Source: a virus. From it: DNA of 20,414 nt. Within the stretch, counting starts at the first letter, position 1. Each line of letters starts with the position of its first letter. The stretch covers positions 1 through 20,414 of the IMG/VR virus record IMGVR_UViG_3300009606_000124. The stretch is one strand, 5' to 3'. Shown here one piece after another: positions 12,455 to 20,414 of this stretch. Under the pieces are notes generated by a model. It was not told where the DNA came from. It was given only the letters and a program-made list of their open reading frames with translations, and did not search any database. A program made the translations under genes and the position numbers.

Positions 12455-13351
12455 ATGATGGTAGTAGACTTCAATCAAGTAGCAATTGCTACATTCATGG
12501 GTGAAATGGGACATCGTGGAGGATCAGACCTTGAAGTCAATCTTCCTCTGATGCGTCACATGATCCTCAACACAATACGCTCGTACAAAAACAAATTCTC
12601 AGATGAGTTTGGTGATGAGGTAGTTATTGCTTGCGATAACAAACGCTATTGGCGTAGAGATATATTTCCCTACTACAAAGCACATCGCAAGAAGGCACGA
12701 GACGATAGTGCCTTTGATTGGTCAGCAATCTTTGAAGCACTGAATACGATACGCAATGAGTTAGACGAATACTTTCCGTATCCTGTCATTGATGTAGATG
12801 GCGCAGAGGCAGATGATGTCATCGGCACACTCGCTGAGTATTCACAGACAGCAGGTGAAGGTGGTGGTTTGTTTGACGATGGAACAGCGATACCTTTTCT
12901 AGTGTTGTCAGGTGACCATGACTTCAATCAGTTGCAGAAGTGGAGCAACGTGAAGCAGTATACGCCTGCACAGAAGAAGTGGATCAAGATCAAAGAACCT
13001 GCAGCACAAGTATTGATGGAACATATCATCACAGGCGACAAAGGTGACGGTGTGCCTAACATGTTATCACCTGATAACTCATTTGTTGATGGCATTAGGC
13101 AAAAGCCTATTCGTAAGAATCTGATGGCAGAGTGGAAAGCAACAGCACCAGAGAAATGGATTACTGCTGAGATGTCTCACGGATACAATCGTAATCAGAT
13201 GCTAGTAGATCTTACAAAGACTCCAGAAGACATCAAACAAAGTATTATAGATAGTTACGAACGTCAAAAAGGCGGTGACCGTAGTCAACTGCTAAACTTT
13301 TTTATCAAGAACAAAATGAAAGGACTAATAGAAGTCATACAGGATTTCTAG
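12455..13351 (+). CDS. rnh: RNase H, T4 type (5'-3' FEN-family exonuclease)
   Basis: A 298-aa FEN/5'-nuclease that removes RNA primers during lagging-strand synthesis. Metal-binding acids are visible in the usual places: D5 (VVDFNQ), the basic arch 'DNKRYWRRDIFPYYKAHRKK', E118/D120/D121 (DGAEADDVIG), D154 and D156 (SGDHDFNQ), and D195/D198 (GDKGDGVPN, the helix-hairpin-helix area). The length matches T4 RNase H (305 aa). Two adjacent ATGs (12455, 12458) are possible. It follows the upstream gene with one base between and pairs functionally with the primase at 2634. Confidence 0.94.
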   Translation: MMVVDFNQVAIATFMGEMGHRGGSDLEVNLPLMRHMILNTIRSYKNKFSDEFGDEVVIACDNKRYWRRDIFPYYKAHRKKARDDSAFDWSAIFEALNTIRNELDEYFPYPVIDVDGAEADDVIGTLAEYSQTAGEGGGLFDDGTAIPFLVLSGDHDFNQLQKWSNVKQYTPAQKKWIKIKEPAAQVLMEHIITGDKGDGVPNMLSPDNSFVDGIRQKPIRKNLMAEWKATAPEKWITAEMSHGYNRNQMLVDLTKTPEDIKQSIIDSYERQKGGDRSQLLNFFIKNKMKGLIEVIQDF

Positions 13352-14397: not shown

Positions 14398-14898
14398 CTA
14401 GTCTTCGGGACGATACTTGTCGTACTTCATCCCAAGTTGATACCCTTCGGGTAGTGGCTCGTGTTTAGGAACTAGGAAAGCTCCTTCAGGGCCACATATC
14501 CAACGCTTGCGTACACGTTTCTTCCAGGCTTCATGCATCTTTTGTCTAGTAGATTCTTTATGAGTTCTACCATGCATTGGGTTCATGTAGTCTTGCCGTG
14601 TACCTGTCATAGTCTTTTTGATTTTTGATTTGTGTTCTTCGGTGAGACCGTCTTTGTGTCCGTGATTAGCCTTAACACCTGCACCTATCTTTAGCTTAGT
14701 CTCTTCGGTGTGTTTGCTTTTAGCTCTTGCTTTGTCTATGTCAATCTCTATTCTATTCTTGGCAGCATACTCACGCACTGCCTCTACAGTAGCTGCACGG
14801 GTAAGCATCTCACGAGGCTTAGGAACTTTTTGAACGTCCTTGTTCTCTACGATGTAGTGACCTTCATTGGTCTTGAATAGAAAGTATGACTTAGACAT
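14398..14898 (-). CDS. NUMOD3-repeat DNA-binding protein (homing-endonuclease-like, no nuclease domain seen)
   Basis: A 166-aa basic protein with three consecutive helical repeats of NUMOD3 type, the DNA-binding module of GIY-YIG and HNH homing nucleases: residues about 63-79 (HTEETKLKIGAG), 84-100 (LTEEHKSKIKKTMTG) and 107-125 (NPMHGRTHKESTRQKM). The C-terminal 'W.CGPEGAFLVPKHEPLPEGYQLGM' is also typical of the end of phage seg-like nucleases. The first 60 residues show neither GIY-YIG nor HNH catalytic residues, so either the nuclease part was lost or the protein works with a partner. It overlaps the PD-(D/E)XK gene by one base (TAATG) on the minus strand. Confidence 0.8.
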   Translation of the reverse strand: MSKSYFLFKTNEGHYIVENKDVQKVPKPREMLTRAATVEAVREYAAKNRIEIDIDKARAKSKHTEETKLKIGAGVKANHGHKDGLTEEHKSKIKKTMTGTRQDYMNPMHGRTHKESTRQKMHEAWKKRVRKRWICGPEGAFLVPKHEPLPEGYQLGMKYDKYRPED

Positions 14899-15719
14899 TA
14901 TATAATAGTTGTTCCTTGTGTTGGCTTTCCTTGTAAGCGATAACTAGCCATGACATCAATAGTAGTTGGTTTAGGATTGTTAGCAGGAGCATTCAATCCC
15001 CTGGGTTGTATTCTTACTTCTAATTTTGCTGTTAAGTTTGATAGTTTATTGAAAGGTTTGCTTGAGCCAAATATTGCCGCAATCTTTTTCAATTCTTCAG
15101 CAGTTACATTTTTACTGTCTACTATCCATATATCATTTCCTATCATCATTGCTAATACATTTTTTCGTATAGCAGGTCTTATGCTTTTAGTAAACTTTGA
15201 TTTATAGTGTGCTATAATTTTATTTCCTAGGGTACTGCTAGAAATATTAGCTACATTATAATTGGTAGTATTATTTGCAAAGTTTTCTGTAAGAGGTCTT
15301 CTAGCAAACTTATCTGGAACTATGCTCAACATCCCGCTGTATATTTCAGTTATTTTAGAATGAAAATATTTTTTGAAATCTTTTAGCAATCTTTTGCCGT
15401 TAGTAATTGCTTCTTGCGTGTTATTCATTAGAGTTATCAATTCTTGTTTAGCTTCTGATGTACTATCAGGCGTATAAAACTTAGTACCATCGAATCGCCA
15501 ATCACGCATGCTACCCATTTGAGCAGTGTGTGAGTTTTTGTATTCAATGTGAACATCAACTTTAGTTTTAGAATCTAGGTTTATAGTGAAACCGAAATCA
15601 GGAAATCCAGCATCAGCTCCCATTGGTTTTGCAAAAGCAGGGTGAGTTTTGCCCAGTCTTTTCTGCAAAGCCTCAAACGCTTTGTTTTCATCATCAAATG
15701 CCTTGTTATTGGCAACCAT
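14898..15719 (-). CDS. PD-(D/E)XK nuclease-like protein
   Basis: A 273-aa protein with a restriction-type nuclease core: P40-D41 (GFPDFGF), an intervening strand, then E59-x-K61 (DVHIEYKNS), giving PD-x17-ExK. An N-terminal helix (FDDENKAFEALQKRL) may supply an extra acidic residue. The remainder is alpha/beta with no other domain that I recognise. An AAGGAG ribosome binding site and a TATAAATA late promoter stand before it on the minus strand. The gene is A/T-richer than its neighbours. It could be a homing endonuclease of the PD-(D/E)XK class, a defence or host-DNA-degrading nuclease, or a repair enzyme. The coupled NUMOD3 gene favours homing. Confidence 0.7.
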   Translation of the reverse strand: MVANNKAFDDENKAFEALQKRLGKTHPAFAKPMGADAGFPDFGFTINLDSKTKVDVHIEYKNSHTAQMGSMRDWRFDGTKFYTPDSTSEAKQELITLMNNTQEAITNGKRLLKDFKKYFHSKITEIYSGMLSIVPDKFARRPLTENFANNTTNYNVANISSSTLGNKIIAHYKSKFTKSIRPAIRKNVLAMMIGNDIWIVDSKNVTAEELKKIAAIFGSSKPFNKLSNLTAKLEVRIQPRGLNAPANNPKPTTIDVMASYRLQGKPTQGTTII

Positions 15720-15804: not shown

Positions 15805-15832
15805 TTGACATTGGCCTAAAATACTGTATAAT
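15805..15832 (+). promoter_or_regulatory. First of two tandem sigma70-type promoters
   Basis: TTGACA at 15805-15810 and TATAAT at 15827-15832 are both perfect, spaced 16 bases apart. The -35 context is ACACTTGACATT, as at 2571-2582. Start expected near 15839. Confidence 0.75.
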
Positions 15833-15876: not shown

Positions 15877-15905
15877 TTGACATACCCCTCAATATGTCAT
15901 ATAAT
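15877..15905 (+). promoter_or_regulatory. Second tandem sigma70-type promoter
   Basis: TTGACA at 15877-15882 and TATAAT at 15900-15905 with an ideal 17-base spacer. The -35 context AATGCTTGACAT is the same as at 11292. The expected start near 15912 leaves a short leader containing AAGGAG at 15923-15928, six bases before the ATG at 15935. Confidence 0.85.
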
Positions 15906-15934
15906 GTAAGCATAAACTAAAAAAGGAGATGTTT

Positions 15935-16093: not shown

Positions 16094-16629
16094 TCTTGAT
16101 TTCAATCACAGGCGGCACTAAGACGCAACGAGACTTGGGTGACGATGCTATCCGATTCTTTGTCAAAACACTGATGCCTCGCAAGCGCAGTCTCAACATT
16201 GATCTCAAGATTCACAACCTCATAAAAGATGATGTAGCCGGACTGTGTGACTACATGGGAGGCAACGAGGTTGTTATTGAGTCACATAACCGTGGCACTC
16301 TTTACGATTACATTAGCTTCTTAGCGCATGAATGCGTACACATGAAGCAGTATGTAACAGGCGAACTAAAGACAAATGGTCGCAAAGAATTGTGGCATGG
16401 TAAAGACTTTACTGATGTCCCTTACAAAAAGCAGCCATGGGAAATAGAAGCATGGTCTTCGCAGCACAACTTAGCAAAAGATTTTATTAAAAACAATATG
16501 GGCATTACACTCAAAAAAGCAAAAGACCTGAGTCCTAGATCATTGAAGCAAATGGACTGGAACGCAGAGGCATTGTTTCTACACAAGATAGTAGAGGCTC
16601 AAGTAAAGAAGGAGAAAAAAAGAAAATGA
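16090..16629 (+). CDS. HExxH zinc metalloprotease-like protein (TTG start)
   Basis: A 179-aa protein with the zincin signature H80-E81-C-V-H84 (AHECVHMKQY) and a probable third zinc ligand at E118 or E120 (PWEIEA), a spacing like SprT-type or small phage metalloproteases. The basic tail (KKEKKRK) could bind nucleic acid. The TTG at 16090 is preferred: GAGGAG at 16076-16081 is eight bases before it, and the next in-frame ATG lies 28 codons later. Its substrate is unknown. SprT relatives cleave DNA-protein crosslinks, so clearing proteins from phage DNA is one idea. Neighbours are small nucleotide-metabolism genes. Confidence 0.75.
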   Translation: MILISITGGTKTQRDLGDDAIRFFVKTLMPRKRSLNIDLKIHNLIKDDVAGLCDYMGGNEVVIESHNRGTLYDYISFLAHECVHMKQYVTGELKTNGRKELWHGKDFTDVPYKKQPWEIEAWSSQHNLAKDFIKNNMGITLKKAKDLSPRSLKQMDWNAEALFLHKIVEAQVKKEKKRK

Positions 16630-17231
16630 TGTTTAAAGAAAAAATAATCCTAACTGACATAGACGGATGCTGTCTTGACTGGGAATATGCCTTCCATAAT
16701 TACATGGAAGTACAAGGTCATGAACTTGGTGACAAAGATGTATACTCAATGGCAATGGCGTATCAAATGGCGCCTGATAAAGTCAAACGAATGATTAAGA
16801 CATTCAACGAATCCGCAGCGATTGGCTTCTTGCCACCGTTGCGTGATGCTCAGTACTATATCAAAAAGCTCCACGAGAAGCGACAGTATAGGTTTGTGGC
16901 AATCACTAGCCTGAGTTTAGATCCTTATGCTAAACTGTTACGAGAACGTAATCTCAAAAAGATATTTGGTCCAAACACATTCAAAGAGGTTATCTGTTTA
17001 GAATGCGGTGCTGATAAAGACGATGCACTAGGACATGCAGCAGTAAAATATCCTGGTGCAGTTTGGATTGAAGATAAGCCAGAGAATGCTGATGTTGGTG
17101 CTAAACTGGGCTTTGATACATATTTAATGGAACATGCACACAATATGAAATATAGGGGCAAAGCCAGAGTCGTGAAGAACTGGCAAGAGCTTTATGGATT
17201 GATACTTAGAGGCAAGCCAGTATGGCCATAG
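16626..17231 (+). CDS. HAD-superfamily phosphatase
   Basis: A 201-aa HAD-fold hydrolase. Motif I is DIDGC (nucleophile D11 and D13 in 'ILTDIDGCCLDW'), motif II is the Thr/Ser of 'AITSLS', a Lys for motif III is likely in the following helix region, and motif IV is 'WIEDKPENADVGAKLG', where the acidic pair binds magnesium. The size and the small cap between motifs I and II suggest a nucleotidase- or sugar-phosphatase-like enzyme. Phages use relatives such as 5'(3')-deoxyribonucleotidases and polynucleotide phosphatases. The start ATG overlaps the previous stop (ATGA), with AAGGAG at 16609-16614. Confidence 0.8.
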   Translation: MMFKEKIILTDIDGCCLDWEYAFHNYMEVQGHELGDKDVYSMAMAYQMAPDKVKRMIKTFNESAAIGFLPPLRDAQYYIKKLHEKRQYRFVAITSLSLDPYAKLLRERNLKKIFGPNTFKEVICLECGADKDDALGHAAVKYPGAVWIEDKPENADVGAKLGFDTYLMEHAHNMKYRGKARVVKNWQELYGLILRGKPVWP

Positions 17232-17240
17232 GAATAAATA

Positions 17241-17348
17241 ATGTTGATTAATATTCAAATTGAAATTGATACCGAACGAGATGCAGATGAGCTACGTGCT
17301 TTGATGGAACTCATTCAACAACTACAGGATAAAAAAGATGTCAACTGA
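17241..17348 (+). CDS. Very small hypothetical protein, 35 aa
   Basis: The sequence is MLINIQIEIDTERDADELRA... ending QDKKDVN. AGGA at 17230-17233 lies seven bases before the ATG, and the end overlaps the MazG-like start by 11 bases, which fits the tight packing around it. It has a short beta strand with alternating Ile residues and then a helix with a leucine pattern. No function can be read from it. A conserved reading frame in related phages would be needed to be sure it is translated. Confidence 0.55.
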   Translation: MLINIQIEIDTERDADELRALMELIQQLQDKKDVN

Positions 17349-17646
17349 AGGAATGTGTGAGAATTTAATCTACAAGATTAGACAGTGGCATCATGACCGC
17401 AATCTAATCGAGGGTGCTACTGACAAGGATCAGGTGTGTAAACTGATTCAAGAAGTCGGAGAACTGTCTGACAACGTATGTAAGCAACGAGATGTCCGTG
17501 ATGACATTGGCGACATCATTGTAGTGCTGATAAATATTGCTGAAAGAAACAACATTACTATTGCAGAGTGCCTTGCACAAGCATATGATGACATCAAAGA
17601 CCGCAAAGGTAAGATGGTAGACGGCATCTTCATCAAGGAAGAATAA
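17338..17646 (+). CDS. MazG-like nucleotide pyrophosphohydrolase
   Basis: A 102-aa all-alpha protein of the MazG/NTP-pyrophosphohydrolase type, which cleaves nucleoside triphosphates to monophosphates or acts on ppGpp-like signals in marine phages. The metal-binding pattern is 'KLIQEVGELSDNV' (E..E on helix 1) and 'DVRDDIGDIIVVL' (D...D on the next helix), the ExxE...DxxxD set. The length is typical of a single-domain phage MazG. It sits with the HAD phosphatase in a nucleotide-oriented operon. Specific substrate is not determined by the sequence. Confidence 0.85.
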   Translation: MSTEGMCENLIYKIRQWHHDRNLIEGATDKDQVCKLIQEVGELSDNVCKQRDVRDDIGDIIVVLINIAERNNITIAECLAQAYDDIKDRKGKMVDGIFIKEE

Positions 17647-17750
17647 TGTACCTTTGTGTATGTAACGCTGTCAAAGAAGGCGACAAGGATCGCTATCATT
17701 TGATCGGTACAAATTGTGGCAAATGTAAAGAAACTAAAGAGAAAAAATGA
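17646..17750 (+). CDS. Miniature Bfd-like [2Fe-2S] ferredoxin, 34 aa
   Basis: A tiny protein, MYLCVCNAVKEGDK... ending in ...GTNCGKCKETKEKK, that reads like a cut-down bacterioferritin-associated ferredoxin (Bfd). It has the same start (MY.C.CN), the cysteine set C4-x-C6 ... C24-x2-C27, and the 'G..CGKC' second pair. In E. coli Bfd (64 aa) the two pairs are about 31 residues apart; here only 17 residues lie between. Four cysteines in the right order could still bind a [2Fe-2S] cluster or zinc. It starts in a TAATG overlap with the MazG gene and ends in an ATGA overlap. A role in electron transfer or iron release for the oxygenase or reductase genes nearby is inference. Confidence 0.65.
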   Translation: MYLCVCNAVKEGDKDRYHLIGTNCGKCKETKEKK

Positions 17751-17926
17751 TTATGGAAACTTATTACGCTGTTTCACTCTTTCTAATGATTGGCTGTGGT
17801 TTTATGTCTTATAACATAGGACGAAAGGAAGGCGTGATGAAATTCCTTGATTACTTAGACTCTCATGCTGACAAGAATGGTGTATTAAAAATCAAAATCA
17901 CTGAGACAACCTTTGAGATATTGTAG
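17747..17926 (+). CDS. Small single-pass membrane protein, 59 aa
   Basis: It starts at ATG 17747 in an ATGA overlap. The N-terminus METYYAVSLFLMIGCGFMSY (from Met3) is a membrane segment, followed by 'NIGRKEGVMKFLDYLDSHADKNGVLKIKITETTFEIL' in the cytoplasm. Small phage proteins with an N-terminal anchor and a short 'GRKEG' tail are common in T4-like phages and unexplained. Its stop overlaps the GTG of the next gene (TAGTG), so it is part of the operon. Function unknown. Confidence 0.65.
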   Translation: MIMETYYAVSLFLMIGCGFMSYNIGRKEGVMKFLDYLDSHADKNGVLKIKITETTFEIL

Positions 17927-18516
17927 TGAATGATTATATAAGAGAGAATGTGCTGTATCCTCTCACTGAAAAAGACATAGAAATATTCGCTGATTCAGTC
18001 AAACATCCTGATGATGAGCGCCTCACTCACCACGCCATCAAAGACAAACGCATCCTTCGTACAGACTTCACCAAGAACATGATTCGTCTGGCTAAACTGC
18101 TAGACTTAGAAGTCTCGTCCATCACAGCATTCACGGGCAAAGCTGGCGAGCATTGCGCTCCTCACATTGACGGAGAGCCAGGCAAGTCATACTCATGGCG
18201 GCTAGCTTATTATGCCAAAGGAGACAACAGCTCACTGAACTGGTGGCGTGTAGGTCCTGCTATTGAACACAAGCTATTAGAATTGGATAACAAGCGTTCA
18301 AAAGAGAATGATGAGACTCCTACTGGATATTCTGTTATAGATACTCAAGAGAAAGTATTCACACAGCCTATCAATATGCATTCTGCCTTCGTGCGTACAG
18401 ATATACCACATTCAGTAGACATGACAAAGGCGACTGAAGAACGTCTAACAATATCTGCTACATTCTTTCCTCACATCTTTTGGGAAGAACTGAACAAAAG
18501 ATTGGATAAAATATGA
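17926..18516 (+). CDS. 2-oxoglutarate/Fe(II)-dependent oxygenase-like protein (GTG start)
   Basis: A 196-aa protein with the double-stranded beta-helix residue set: H80-x-D82 (CAPHIDG), distal H162 (IPHSV) and R173 (ERLTIS), the usual HxD...H...R that holds iron and 2-oxoglutarate. The GTG at 17926 is chosen because it sits in a TAGTG overlap and is the first start in the frame. The substrate could be a nucleic acid, protein or small molecule. The immediate partners downstream are a dehydrogenase and a ketoacyl synthase, so oxidation of an acyl-type product is a reasonable guess. It overlaps the dehydrogenase by four bases. Confidence 0.8.
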   Translation: MNDYIRENVLYPLTEKDIEIFADSVKHPDDERLTHHAIKDKRILRTDFTKNMIRLAKLLDLEVSSITAFTGKAGEHCAPHIDGEPGKSYSWRLAYYAKGDNSSLNWWRVGPAIEHKLLELDNKRSKENDETPTGYSVIDTQEKVFTQPINMHSAFVRTDIPHSVDMTKATEERLTISATFFPHIFWEELNKRLDKI

Positions 18517-19058
18517 AGATATCAATCACTGGTTCATCAAGCGGTATAGGACTGGCTGTTAAAAATTTACTAGGGGCTGAACATGAAGTGGTGTGTCTAG
18601 ATATTACAGACGGATATACCATAGACGACCTGTCTATAATTAAGCACATACTAGATGCAGACATATTCATCAACAATGCCTTCAGCAAAACAAAACCAGA
18701 AGCACAGCAACTGCTGTTTGATACAGTGTACGGAGAATGGAAACACACTGAGAAACAAATCATAAATGTGGGAAGTCTTTCAAAATACTATAGCCCAGAA
18801 GACACTGTGAAATTTCCTAACTACACGAATGCTAAAAAGGCATTGAATGAAGCGCATTGTGCTGCATTAGTGCAAAAAGACAGAACGGTAAGGATGACAC
18901 AAATCTGTCCTGGTTATACTGACACTACAATGATAGATGGATGGGATGTGCCAAAACTTGAAGTAGAAGTTATTGCTTCAGCTATACACCACTGTATAAA
19001 AATGGCAGCTGCAGGAATAGAGATATCAGACTATACAATATGCAAAGCAAGGGGATAA
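18513..19058 (+). CDS. Short-chain dehydrogenase/reductase (FabG-like)
   Basis: A 181-aa SDR. The cofactor motif is T6-G-S-S-S-G-I-G13, N54-N55-A56 is the NNA segment, S88 is the catalytic serine (NVGSLS), and Y104-x3-K108 (YTNAK) is the catalytic pair, followed by 'CPGYTDT'. The protein is about 60 residues shorter than a typical 240-250-aa SDR, so the substrate-binding part is reduced. NADP(H)-dependent oxidation or reduction of a keto/hydroxy group is expected. Adjacency to the ketoacyl synthase (one base apart) suggests a 3-oxoacyl reductase step like FabG, but short SDRs also act on sugars. ATGA overlap with the oxygenase upstream. Confidence 0.88.
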   Translation: MKISITGSSSGIGLAVKNLLGAEHEVVCLDITDGYTIDDLSIIKHILDADIFINNAFSKTKPEAQQLLFDTVYGEWKHTEKQIINVGSLSKYYSPEDTVKFPNYTNAKKALNEAHCAALVQKDRTVRMTQICPGYTDTTMIDGWDVPKLEVEVIASAIHHCIKMAAAGIEISDYTICKARG

Positions 19059-19059
19059 T

Positions 19060-20262
19060 ATGCAACTAGCAGTGACTGGCGTAGGCATTGTATCGCCTCT
19101 TGGCAATAACATTGAAGAAAATATCAAGGGACTTAGAAATCTTGATGTCAACCTGTCTGACTTCAACATGGTTGGACATTACAGTGAACCGATGCTTGAA
19201 ATAAAGAAAGCGTTTCACTGTAACTACGATAACATAGACACTAGCCAGCTAGTCAGAGACAAGGACAGAAAAACGCTAGATCCTAATGTCATTACGAGTC
19301 TGATTGCCGCAGATCAAGCAGTCAAAATGTCAGGACTAAAATTGCCTGAAGATACTCCTGTTGTTGTAGGCACTGTACGAGGAGGATCTGCTAATCTAGG
19401 CAGAGTAGGCAATGAACTGTGTCAAGGTAAAACTCGTATCCATCCTAATGTGCTACTCAGCAGTGCCCAGGACTATGTAAGCAATCATATCAGCAGCCAT
19501 TTCAATCTCAAAGGTCCTAGTTTAGGAACAAGTGCTGCCTGTGTGAGTTCCATTCAAGCACTCGACATTGCCAAGAAGTATATGCAGACAGACGGATACA
19601 CAGCAGCCATCGTGGGCGGCACAGAGTTTATGGCGAACTCAATCACTGCAATATACTTTCAGATGATAGGTGCGGCGAGCAAGACAAACAAAAGTATTCC
19701 TTGGGACAAAGACAGAGATGGACTTGTCATAGGCGAAGGCAGTGTGTACATTGTAGTAGAACCATTAGAGTTAGCACAAGCACGTGGCGTTTGCATACGA
19801 TGGGTGATAGACGGCATAGGCATAGCAAACGATGCAGCCAGTGTGCTACGGCCAGACAAGAACGGCACAGGAGCTAGACTTGCTATCAGCAAAGCAATGA
19901 AGCAAGCGAACACAGAGCCAAAAGATTATAAAGTATTCAACGCACACGCTACTAGCACACCCACAGGTGATCCTATTGAATACGATGTGTTGAAGGATAT
20001 ATTTCATGGAGGCTTCTTGTACAGCAACAAAGGGCAACTAGGACACATGATGGGAGCATCCGGTCTCGCAGAAATAGTACTGGGCGCAGAGGCAATGGTA
20101 GATGATTTCATACCAGGCAACGCAGGACTCACAACTCCTTTCACTGATGATAAATACTTTACACTAAAGAATACCACTGTCCAAGGACAATATAATCGTT
20201 TGTTCAAAACAAGTTTCGGTTTCGGCGGCAGAGCAGCAGCAGTCAGTATAAGGAAAACATGA
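19060..20262 (+). CDS. Beta-ketoacyl-ACP synthase (KAS II/FabF-like)
   Basis: A 400-aa thiolase-fold condensing enzyme, normal length for FabF/FabB. The catalytic triad is intact: C161 (TSAACVSS), H296 (NAHATSTPTGD) and H329 (GHMMGASG), with a lysine (YSNKGQLGH) before the second histidine and the C-terminal gate 'FGFGG' (SFGFGGRAAAVSI). The N-terminus 'LAVTGVGIVSPLG' is also typical. It would join malonyl-ACP to an acyl chain. The group it uses (fatty acid, polyketide-like or modified ACP) cannot be read. No acyl carrier protein or malonyltransferase is in the window, so host partners or downstream genes must supply them. The gene is one base after the SDR and overlaps the next by four. Confidence 0.93.
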   Translation: MQLAVTGVGIVSPLGNNIEENIKGLRNLDVNLSDFNMVGHYSEPMLEIKKAFHCNYDNIDTSQLVRDKDRKTLDPNVITSLIAADQAVKMSGLKLPEDTPVVVGTVRGGSANLGRVGNELCQGKTRIHPNVLLSSAQDYVSNHISSHFNLKGPSLGTSAACVSSIQALDIAKKYMQTDGYTAAIVGGTEFMANSITAIYFQMIGAASKTNKSIPWDKDRDGLVIGEGSVYIVVEPLELAQARGVCIRWVIDGIGIANDAASVLRPDKNGTGARLAISKAMKQANTEPKDYKVFNAHATSTPTGDPIEYDVLKDIFHGGFLYSNKGQLGHMMGASGLAEIVLGAEAMVDDFIPGNAGLTTPFTDDKYFTLKNTTVQGQYNRLFKTSFGFGGRAAAVSIRKT

Positions 20263-20414
20263 AAAAAGATAATGGCGTCTTTTGTGCGCTTCCTTTCTTG
20301 CACTTGCATGTAAACGCAAAAGGCAATGTTAAGCCTTGCTGTATATCTCCTACAACTTCGGAAGATGTAGGCAAATTATCAAAATCTACCCTCGAAGAAA
20401 TTTTCAATAACGAC
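20259..20414 (+). CDS. Twitch/SPASM-type radical SAM-like protein, 5' part (runs off window)
   Basis: The first 52 codons are visible. The sequence MKKDNGVFCALPFLHLHVNAKGNVKPCCIS fits the cysteine-rich 'FC..PF.H....G.V.PCC' twitch or SPASM segment that appears at the start of some phage radical SAM proteins, followed by 'G.L...TLEEIFNND'. AAGGA at 20250-20254 serves as ribosome binding site, and the ATG overlaps the ketoacyl synthase stop. The CxxxCxxC cluster of the catalytic domain is beyond the window, so only the auxiliary-cluster-type segment can be supported. A further redox modification step in the same pathway is likely. Confidence 0.7.
   Translation, partial: MKKDNGVFCALPFLHLHVNAKGNVKPCCISPTTSEDVGKLSKSTLEEIFNND

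Follow-up and report, generated by a model that had tools for sequence, protein, structure and literature searches.

Does the run of genes that closes a marine phage record encode a single biosynthetic pathway, and what might a ketoacyl synthase in its midst do during infection? The record in question is an IMG/VR entry of 20,414 bases (IMGVR_UViG_3300009606_000124; the whole stretch is called the window here), which terminates within the operon. The original prediction, made from the sequence alone, described four closely spaced genes for a 2OG-Fe(II) oxygenase, a short-chain dehydrogenase/reductase, a condensing enzyme and a radical SAM-like protein, and four tightly packed open reading frames are indeed found there:

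17926..18516, plus strand: oxygenase-like protein, 196 aa, with an invariant HxD...H...R motif; family not proven
18513..19058, plus strand: compact short-chain dehydrogenase/reductase (SDR), 181 aa, with catalytic S88-Y104-K108
19060..20262, plus strand: beta-ketoacyl synthase (KAS) of a phage-only FabF-like clade, with Cys161-His296-Lys324-His329
20259..20414, plus strand: first part of a radical SAM protein of the N-twitch/SPASM kind (NF033640), truncated where the window stops and complete in a syntenic phage (L002:11200-12447)

The junctions consist of a TAGTG overlap at 17926, ATGA overlaps at 18513 and 20259, and one base between 19058 and 19060. The reading that we favour, and think probable, is that the KAS would extend acyl chains jointly with host fatty-acid synthesis, and that the region would be a slot in the genome of a marine T4-like phage where cargo genes vary.

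The condensing enzyme proved to be intact, as had been claimed. Both halves of the Pfam ketoacyl-synt family matched far above the cut-off of 20.8 bits (N, 99.6 bits; C, 75.9 bits), and Cys161, His296 and His329 are present together with Lys324 and the GFGG loop; retention of the Cys-His-His set indicates that the protein is not a chain-length factor. Like FabF/KAS II (TIGR03150), it aligns over its full length, and its best PDB matches, the closest solved relatives, are FabF proteins (E 1e-46). Unlike them, it reaches only about half of the NCBIfam equivalog cut-off (238.2 versus 493.75 bits), belongs to a clade of its own and does not lie beside fabG, acpP or fabD; we describe it as FabF-like and do not file it as FabF. 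It has no PHROG family. Because the score is so far below the FabF cut-off, the substrate may be something other than ordinary fatty acyl-ACP. Phylogenetic analysis placed the protein in a phage-only clade with 100/100 support that comprises about ten phage populations, and all ten of the clade members included in the tree retain Cys161, His296, Lys324 and His329. The window KAS is 26-31% identical to the sampled marine gammaproteobacterial FabB/FabF, and dN/dS between the window and L002 is 0.10. A bacterial origin was considered and rejected: neither a genome-contig scan with short exact peptides nor a search of 398 Pseudomonadota genomes at E 1e-50 returned a relative, whereas the same query, as a positive control, recovered relatives in phages with E values of 1e-178 or lower; the absence from bacteria holds for what was sampled, the single collection-wide genome scan having used short exact peptides. 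Two sets of candidate family members were also set aside. Matches in 28 INPHARED records were all below 32% identity, and several are bacterial fab genes in phage-labelled records. The many matches of 28% identity that lie close to a terminus of a short IMG/VR contig (L164 onward) resemble host FabF next to pieces of prophage, and the three of these placed on the tree group with marine gammaproteobacterial KAS. The KAS of L160 is split by an assembly gap (a run of N) and is no pseudogene. On the best reading of the sequence, the KAS would be a FabF-like enzyme that is catalytically active and adapted to phages.

An acyl-chain role for the enzyme is supported by the gene content of its relatives, since phages with this KAS also encode acyl carrier protein (ACP), desaturases and a FabZ-type dehydratase. 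ACP with the DSL serine was found in all five KAS-positive sister-group records longer than 100 kb (G002, G003, G407, G409 and G410), which represent four populations related by descent, G409 and G410 sharing these regions and being counted as one; the ACP neighbourhood is conserved in the order lipoprotein-ACP-DnaJ-ClpA. Desaturases occur in G407, G409 and G410 (two populations) and the FabZ-type dehydratase in G409/G410 (64 bits; one population), with G409 holding KAS, ACP, FabZ-type, SDR-type and desaturase genes together. In the sister group these companions lie tens of kb away from the KAS and not in one operon. More distant KAS genes of phages, 26-30% identical to that of the window, immediately precede a desaturase gene, as seen in L163 and L196-L198. 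A related 125-kb record, G005, is without KAS, ACP and desaturase, as a single contrast. All ACP-positive, KAS-negative records are fragments of at most 64 kb, among them G439 of the same population as the KAS-positive G003; because ACP and KAS lie tens of kb apart, such fragments neither support nor refute co-occurrence. The window's own lineage is represented by fragments (the window and L002), in which the acyl-type genes are the KAS and the SDR and no ACP, desaturase or other fatty-acid synthesis gene is known.

Two alternatives build on these companions. One holds that a marine T4-like lineage possesses an acyl-elongation toolkit of its own, made up of the phage-only KAS clade, ACP, desaturases and sometimes a FabZ-type dehydratase and SDR, which would make or reshape a phage-specified acyl chain in infection, the window KAS being a branch located in an Isc/radical-SAM slot; we put this forward tentatively, as a possibility that we doubt more than we believe. 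The other, which appears rather unlikely, is that the KAS and an ACP supplied by the phage itself, from a gene outside the window, form a dedicated module for a phage-specific acyl chain instead of tuning that of the host. The ACP of all five long KAS-positive sister-group records, with FabZ-type and desaturase genes added in some, would fit such a module, but neither AcpS nor a PlsC-type acyltransferase was found in the records of the KAS-bearing relatives, the FabZ-type gene belongs to a single population, and the co-occurrence of ACP with KAS is not independent, because members of one phage group have inherited much of their gene content in common. A search for a more complete acyl pathway could well begin with the 217-340 kb phage record of G409/G410 (L258 and L259 in G410; L260 in G409), where tandem desaturases and several oxygenase-like genes were seen and the FabZ-type gene is next to a reductase-like reading frame.

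The other three genes of the window bear out the first description to differing degrees. For the putative 2OG-Fe(II) oxygenase the motif was confirmed but the family was not: H80, D82, H162 and R173 are invariant in six homologues, a pattern that on its own can arise by chance, while no convincing Pfam, PHROG or PDB profile match was obtained even at lax thresholds (one irrelevant PDB match, E 0.27) and its structure was predicted with low confidence (pLDDT 45). Similarity to another HxD-bearing phage protein is weak. The second gene is an SDR as proposed, with a PF00106 match of 31.8 bits and the motifs and fold of the classical SDR superfamily; TGxxxGIG, NNA, S88, Y104 and K108 are invariant in seven relatives, and the predicted structure has the SDR (Rossmann) fold (pLDDT 89.8). 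It lies below the FabG equivalog cut-off (TIGR01830, 21 versus 297.75 bits), its best PHROGs match is a FabG-like family that spans 69 residues only, and its predicted fold is no closer to FabG than to other SDRs. Between the window and L002, dN/dS is 0.14 for the SDR and 0.04 for the oxygenase-like gene (dS near saturation). The last reading frame, again as predicted, encodes the beginning of a radical SAM protein of the N-terminal-twitch kind: the fragment, the frame being cut off, matches NF033640 with 42.1 bits across 46 residues, and its homologue in L002 is complete with CxxxCxxC and scores 375.5 bits against a cut-off of 170. A defence assignment of the antiviral viperin type (pVip) was rejected, with 39.4 bits against a cut-off of 180 and a weak PADLOC match.

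If these four proteins acted in sequence, oxygenase-like protein, SDR, KAS and radical SAM enzyme would form one pathway to a small molecule or to the acyl decoration of a glycoconjugate. Such a pathway would agree with the tight packing, with a condensing enzyme adjoining an SDR, with the identical gene order in L002, whose KAS is 88% identical to that of the window, with an SDR near the KAS in L154/L155 as well, and with the FabG-like PHROGs match of the SDR. The relatives argue against it. Conservation of the neighbourhood, which the original prediction had named as its own test, was found for pairs but not for the quartet, which the window is seen to share with L002 alone. In L009-L013, five records from four populations (L009 and L010 hardly differ), the backbone is retained together with the oxygenase-like gene, the latter at 77-80% identity, and an SDR, only 31-34% identical to that of the window, always comes next; it is followed by SGNH-like, 263-aa-family and GlyA-like genes and then by IscU or ErpA, with neither KAS nor radical SAM in the slot. 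Conversely, most relatives' KAS is without the oxygenase-like, SDR and radical SAM genes. Across L003-L006 and L154-L161 it adjoins a dCMP deaminase gene and usually a gene of the TauD family, in many cases downstream of a SufB-C-D-S operon, and L154/L155 are the only ones with an SDR near it. Genes of the radical SAM family form long stacks that have no relation to KAS, the surroundings contain no gene for a carrier protein, a transferase or export, and the SDR fold is equally near other SDRs and FabG. A single four-gene pathway is on this evidence quite improbable. The KAS and radical SAM genes are cargo, and the stretch between the SDR and IscU is a variable slot that ends in IscU/ErpA. Since the SDR follows the oxygenase-like gene more faithfully than it does the KAS, that it serves as ketoreductase for the KAS product is a possibility, but one that we do not favour. 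We give almost no credence to the view that these are passenger host genes, without phage function, caught in a recombination-prone slot: the slot is variable and the 125-kb relative lacks the KAS, but dN/dS is about 0.1, the catalytic residues are all retained across a deep clade, and no bacterial source appeared at E 1e-50 in the 398 Pseudomonadota genomes as against 1e-178 or better for phage relatives.

Several features of these neighbourhoods were recorded in passing. A family of 263-307 aa with no Pfam or PHROG match (L009:9130-9921, L012:9118-9918, L003:8131-9045, L006:7360-8268) immediately follows the SDR in one group of phages and precedes the KAS by a short distance in the other, and may be a functional partner of either. 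SUF-type Fe-S genes (SufB, SufC, SufD and SufS) lie upstream of the KAS in the sister group (L003:366-5681, L004, L006, L156, L158, L161), with ClpS and a SufT-like gene added in L003. Stacks of paralogous N-twitch radical SAM genes (L016, at G005:42696-59946, and L015, L018, L020, L026) are interleaved with methyltransferase-, SGNH-, oxygenase- and carbamoyltransferase-like reading frames.

The left flank of the slot and the signals ahead of it are the following:

15805..15832, plus strand: perfect sigma-70-type promoter (TTGACA-16-TATAAT), first of a tandem pair ahead of the transcription unit
15877..15905, plus strand: perfect sigma-70-type promoter (TTGACA-17-TATAAT), second of the pair
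16626..17231, plus strand: NT5C-type 5'-deoxynucleotidase (PF06941, 35.1 bits), 86-94% identical in L002 and L009-L013; conserved backbone upstream of the slot
17338..17646, plus strand: MazG-type pyrophosphohydrolase (PF03819, 22.4 bits; synteny); conserved backbone
17747..17926, plus strand: small conserved protein of 59 aa, 63-80% identical in relatives; left edge of the cargo slot

Both promoters precede the reading frame at 15929 and are directed toward the operon, and most relatives have one or two similar sites ahead of the same gene group. The window holds four perfect sigma-70 sites against 0.055 expected, and counts of the T4 late-promoter pattern TATAAATA showed no excess. As judged from these sites, the transcription unit is probably read early or in mid-infection by host polymerase. 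The backbone includes an RNase H-like nuclease gene (12455-13351), and because its product matches those of T4-like phages, from several hosts, at up to 48% identity, the T4-like label appears reasonable. Beyond the window, the expected continuation of the operon is seen in the syntenic L002, where the rest of the radical SAM gene is followed by IscU (219 bits, above its cut-off), then by a protein of 235 aa that matches nothing in Pfam, and finally by an ErpA/IscA-type carrier; the ACP, acyltransferase, aminotransferase or glycosyltransferase that had been sought after the window end is absent directly downstream there. Because the L002 IscU is closest, at 77-83% identity, to mostly gammaproteobacterial IscU, with that of marine Luminiphilus among the best, a gammaproteobacterial host is suggested, though not proved.

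In the reading that we favour, a slot bounded by backbone genes (nucleotidase, MazG, small protein) and Fe-S assembly genes (IscU, ErpA) would carry the oxygenase-like and SDR pair and, in the window phage and L002, also the KAS and radical SAM insert, and host-type promoters would drive it early or in mid-infection. The KAS would take acyl-ACP from the type II fatty-acid synthesis of the host and condense it with malonyl-ACP, each cycle would be completed by enzymes of the host, possibly aided by a phage SDR, and acyl chains destined for host lipids would be lengthened or re-proportioned as infection proceeds. The radical SAM protein would perform separate chemistry, with IscU/ErpA helping to supply its clusters, and the product of the KAS would presumably not be a substrate of the SDR or the oxygenase-like protein. 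In favour of this reading stand the gene content with its variable slot and downstream IscU/ErpA, the promoters, the intact active site, purifying selection, the phage-only clade and the presence of ACP, desaturase and FabZ-type genes in sister-group phages that carry the KAS. Against it, the fragments of the window's own lineage and the KAS-negative G005 show no ACP or desaturase, the sister-group companions are remote from the KAS, and the FabF score is low.

Desaturases are the main known route by which phages control host lipids. Cyanophage-encoded lipid desaturases (Roitman 2018, cited in PMC8224337) are, to the extent that they are described there, likewise phage enzymes acting on host acyl chains, but they desaturate, whereas the present enzyme would condense chains and the window has no desaturase. 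A close precedent comes from freshwater SAR11 myophages, T4-like phages that carry both fabF and a stearoyl-CoA desaturase gene and have radical SAM genes in variable cassettes (PMC7029224); going by the description in the available portion of that report, the window KAS differs in adjoining an SDR and a radical SAM gene, and a phage-only clade and an ACP partner are not described there. Two co-isolated T4-like cyanophages encode ACP together with an ACP synthetase (PMC3037559); the excerpt at hand mentions no KAS, whereas the present relatives have ACP with KAS and without AcpS. T4-like environmental viral genomes with an IscU/A-type carrier and up to 12 radical SAM genes (PMC5332604) resemble L002 past the window in phage kind and in their Fe-S assembly and radical SAM cargo, but KAS, SDR and acyl genes are not discussed in the accessible part of that paper. 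Predicted Rhodobacteraceae prophages contain fabG-acpP-fabF (PMC8224337), again a ketoreductase, an ACP and a condensing enzyme in predicted phage DNA; that arrangement follows bacterial chromosomal gene order and is possibly host flank, whereas the window genes lie in a T4-like backbone. Phage radical SAM with IscU, fabF with a desaturase, and ACP are thus already published separately. Our literature search found no report of the phage-only KAS clade or of its co-occurrence with ACP, FabZ-type and desaturase genes, which is not proof of absence. If a phage-restricted condensing enzyme does co-occur with a phage ACP, some marine phages would act on the chain-elongation step itself, and the KAS sequence would be a marker for tracing such phages in viromes.

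Two further observations concern the rest of the window. The four perfect sigma-70 promoters, all on the plus strand (2575, 11292, 15805 and 15877), give a clear early-promoter map for the phage. On the minus strand, a gene with NUMOD3-like repeats (14398-14898; repeats recognised by eye) is conserved in relatives, where its upstream partner, of 273 aa in the window, is swapped for unrelated-looking proteins of 246-357 aa; this region (14398-15719, minus strand; L002:5446-6680; L009:3414-4987; L013:2956-4517) is a second swap site, possibly a nuclease or homing-type module.
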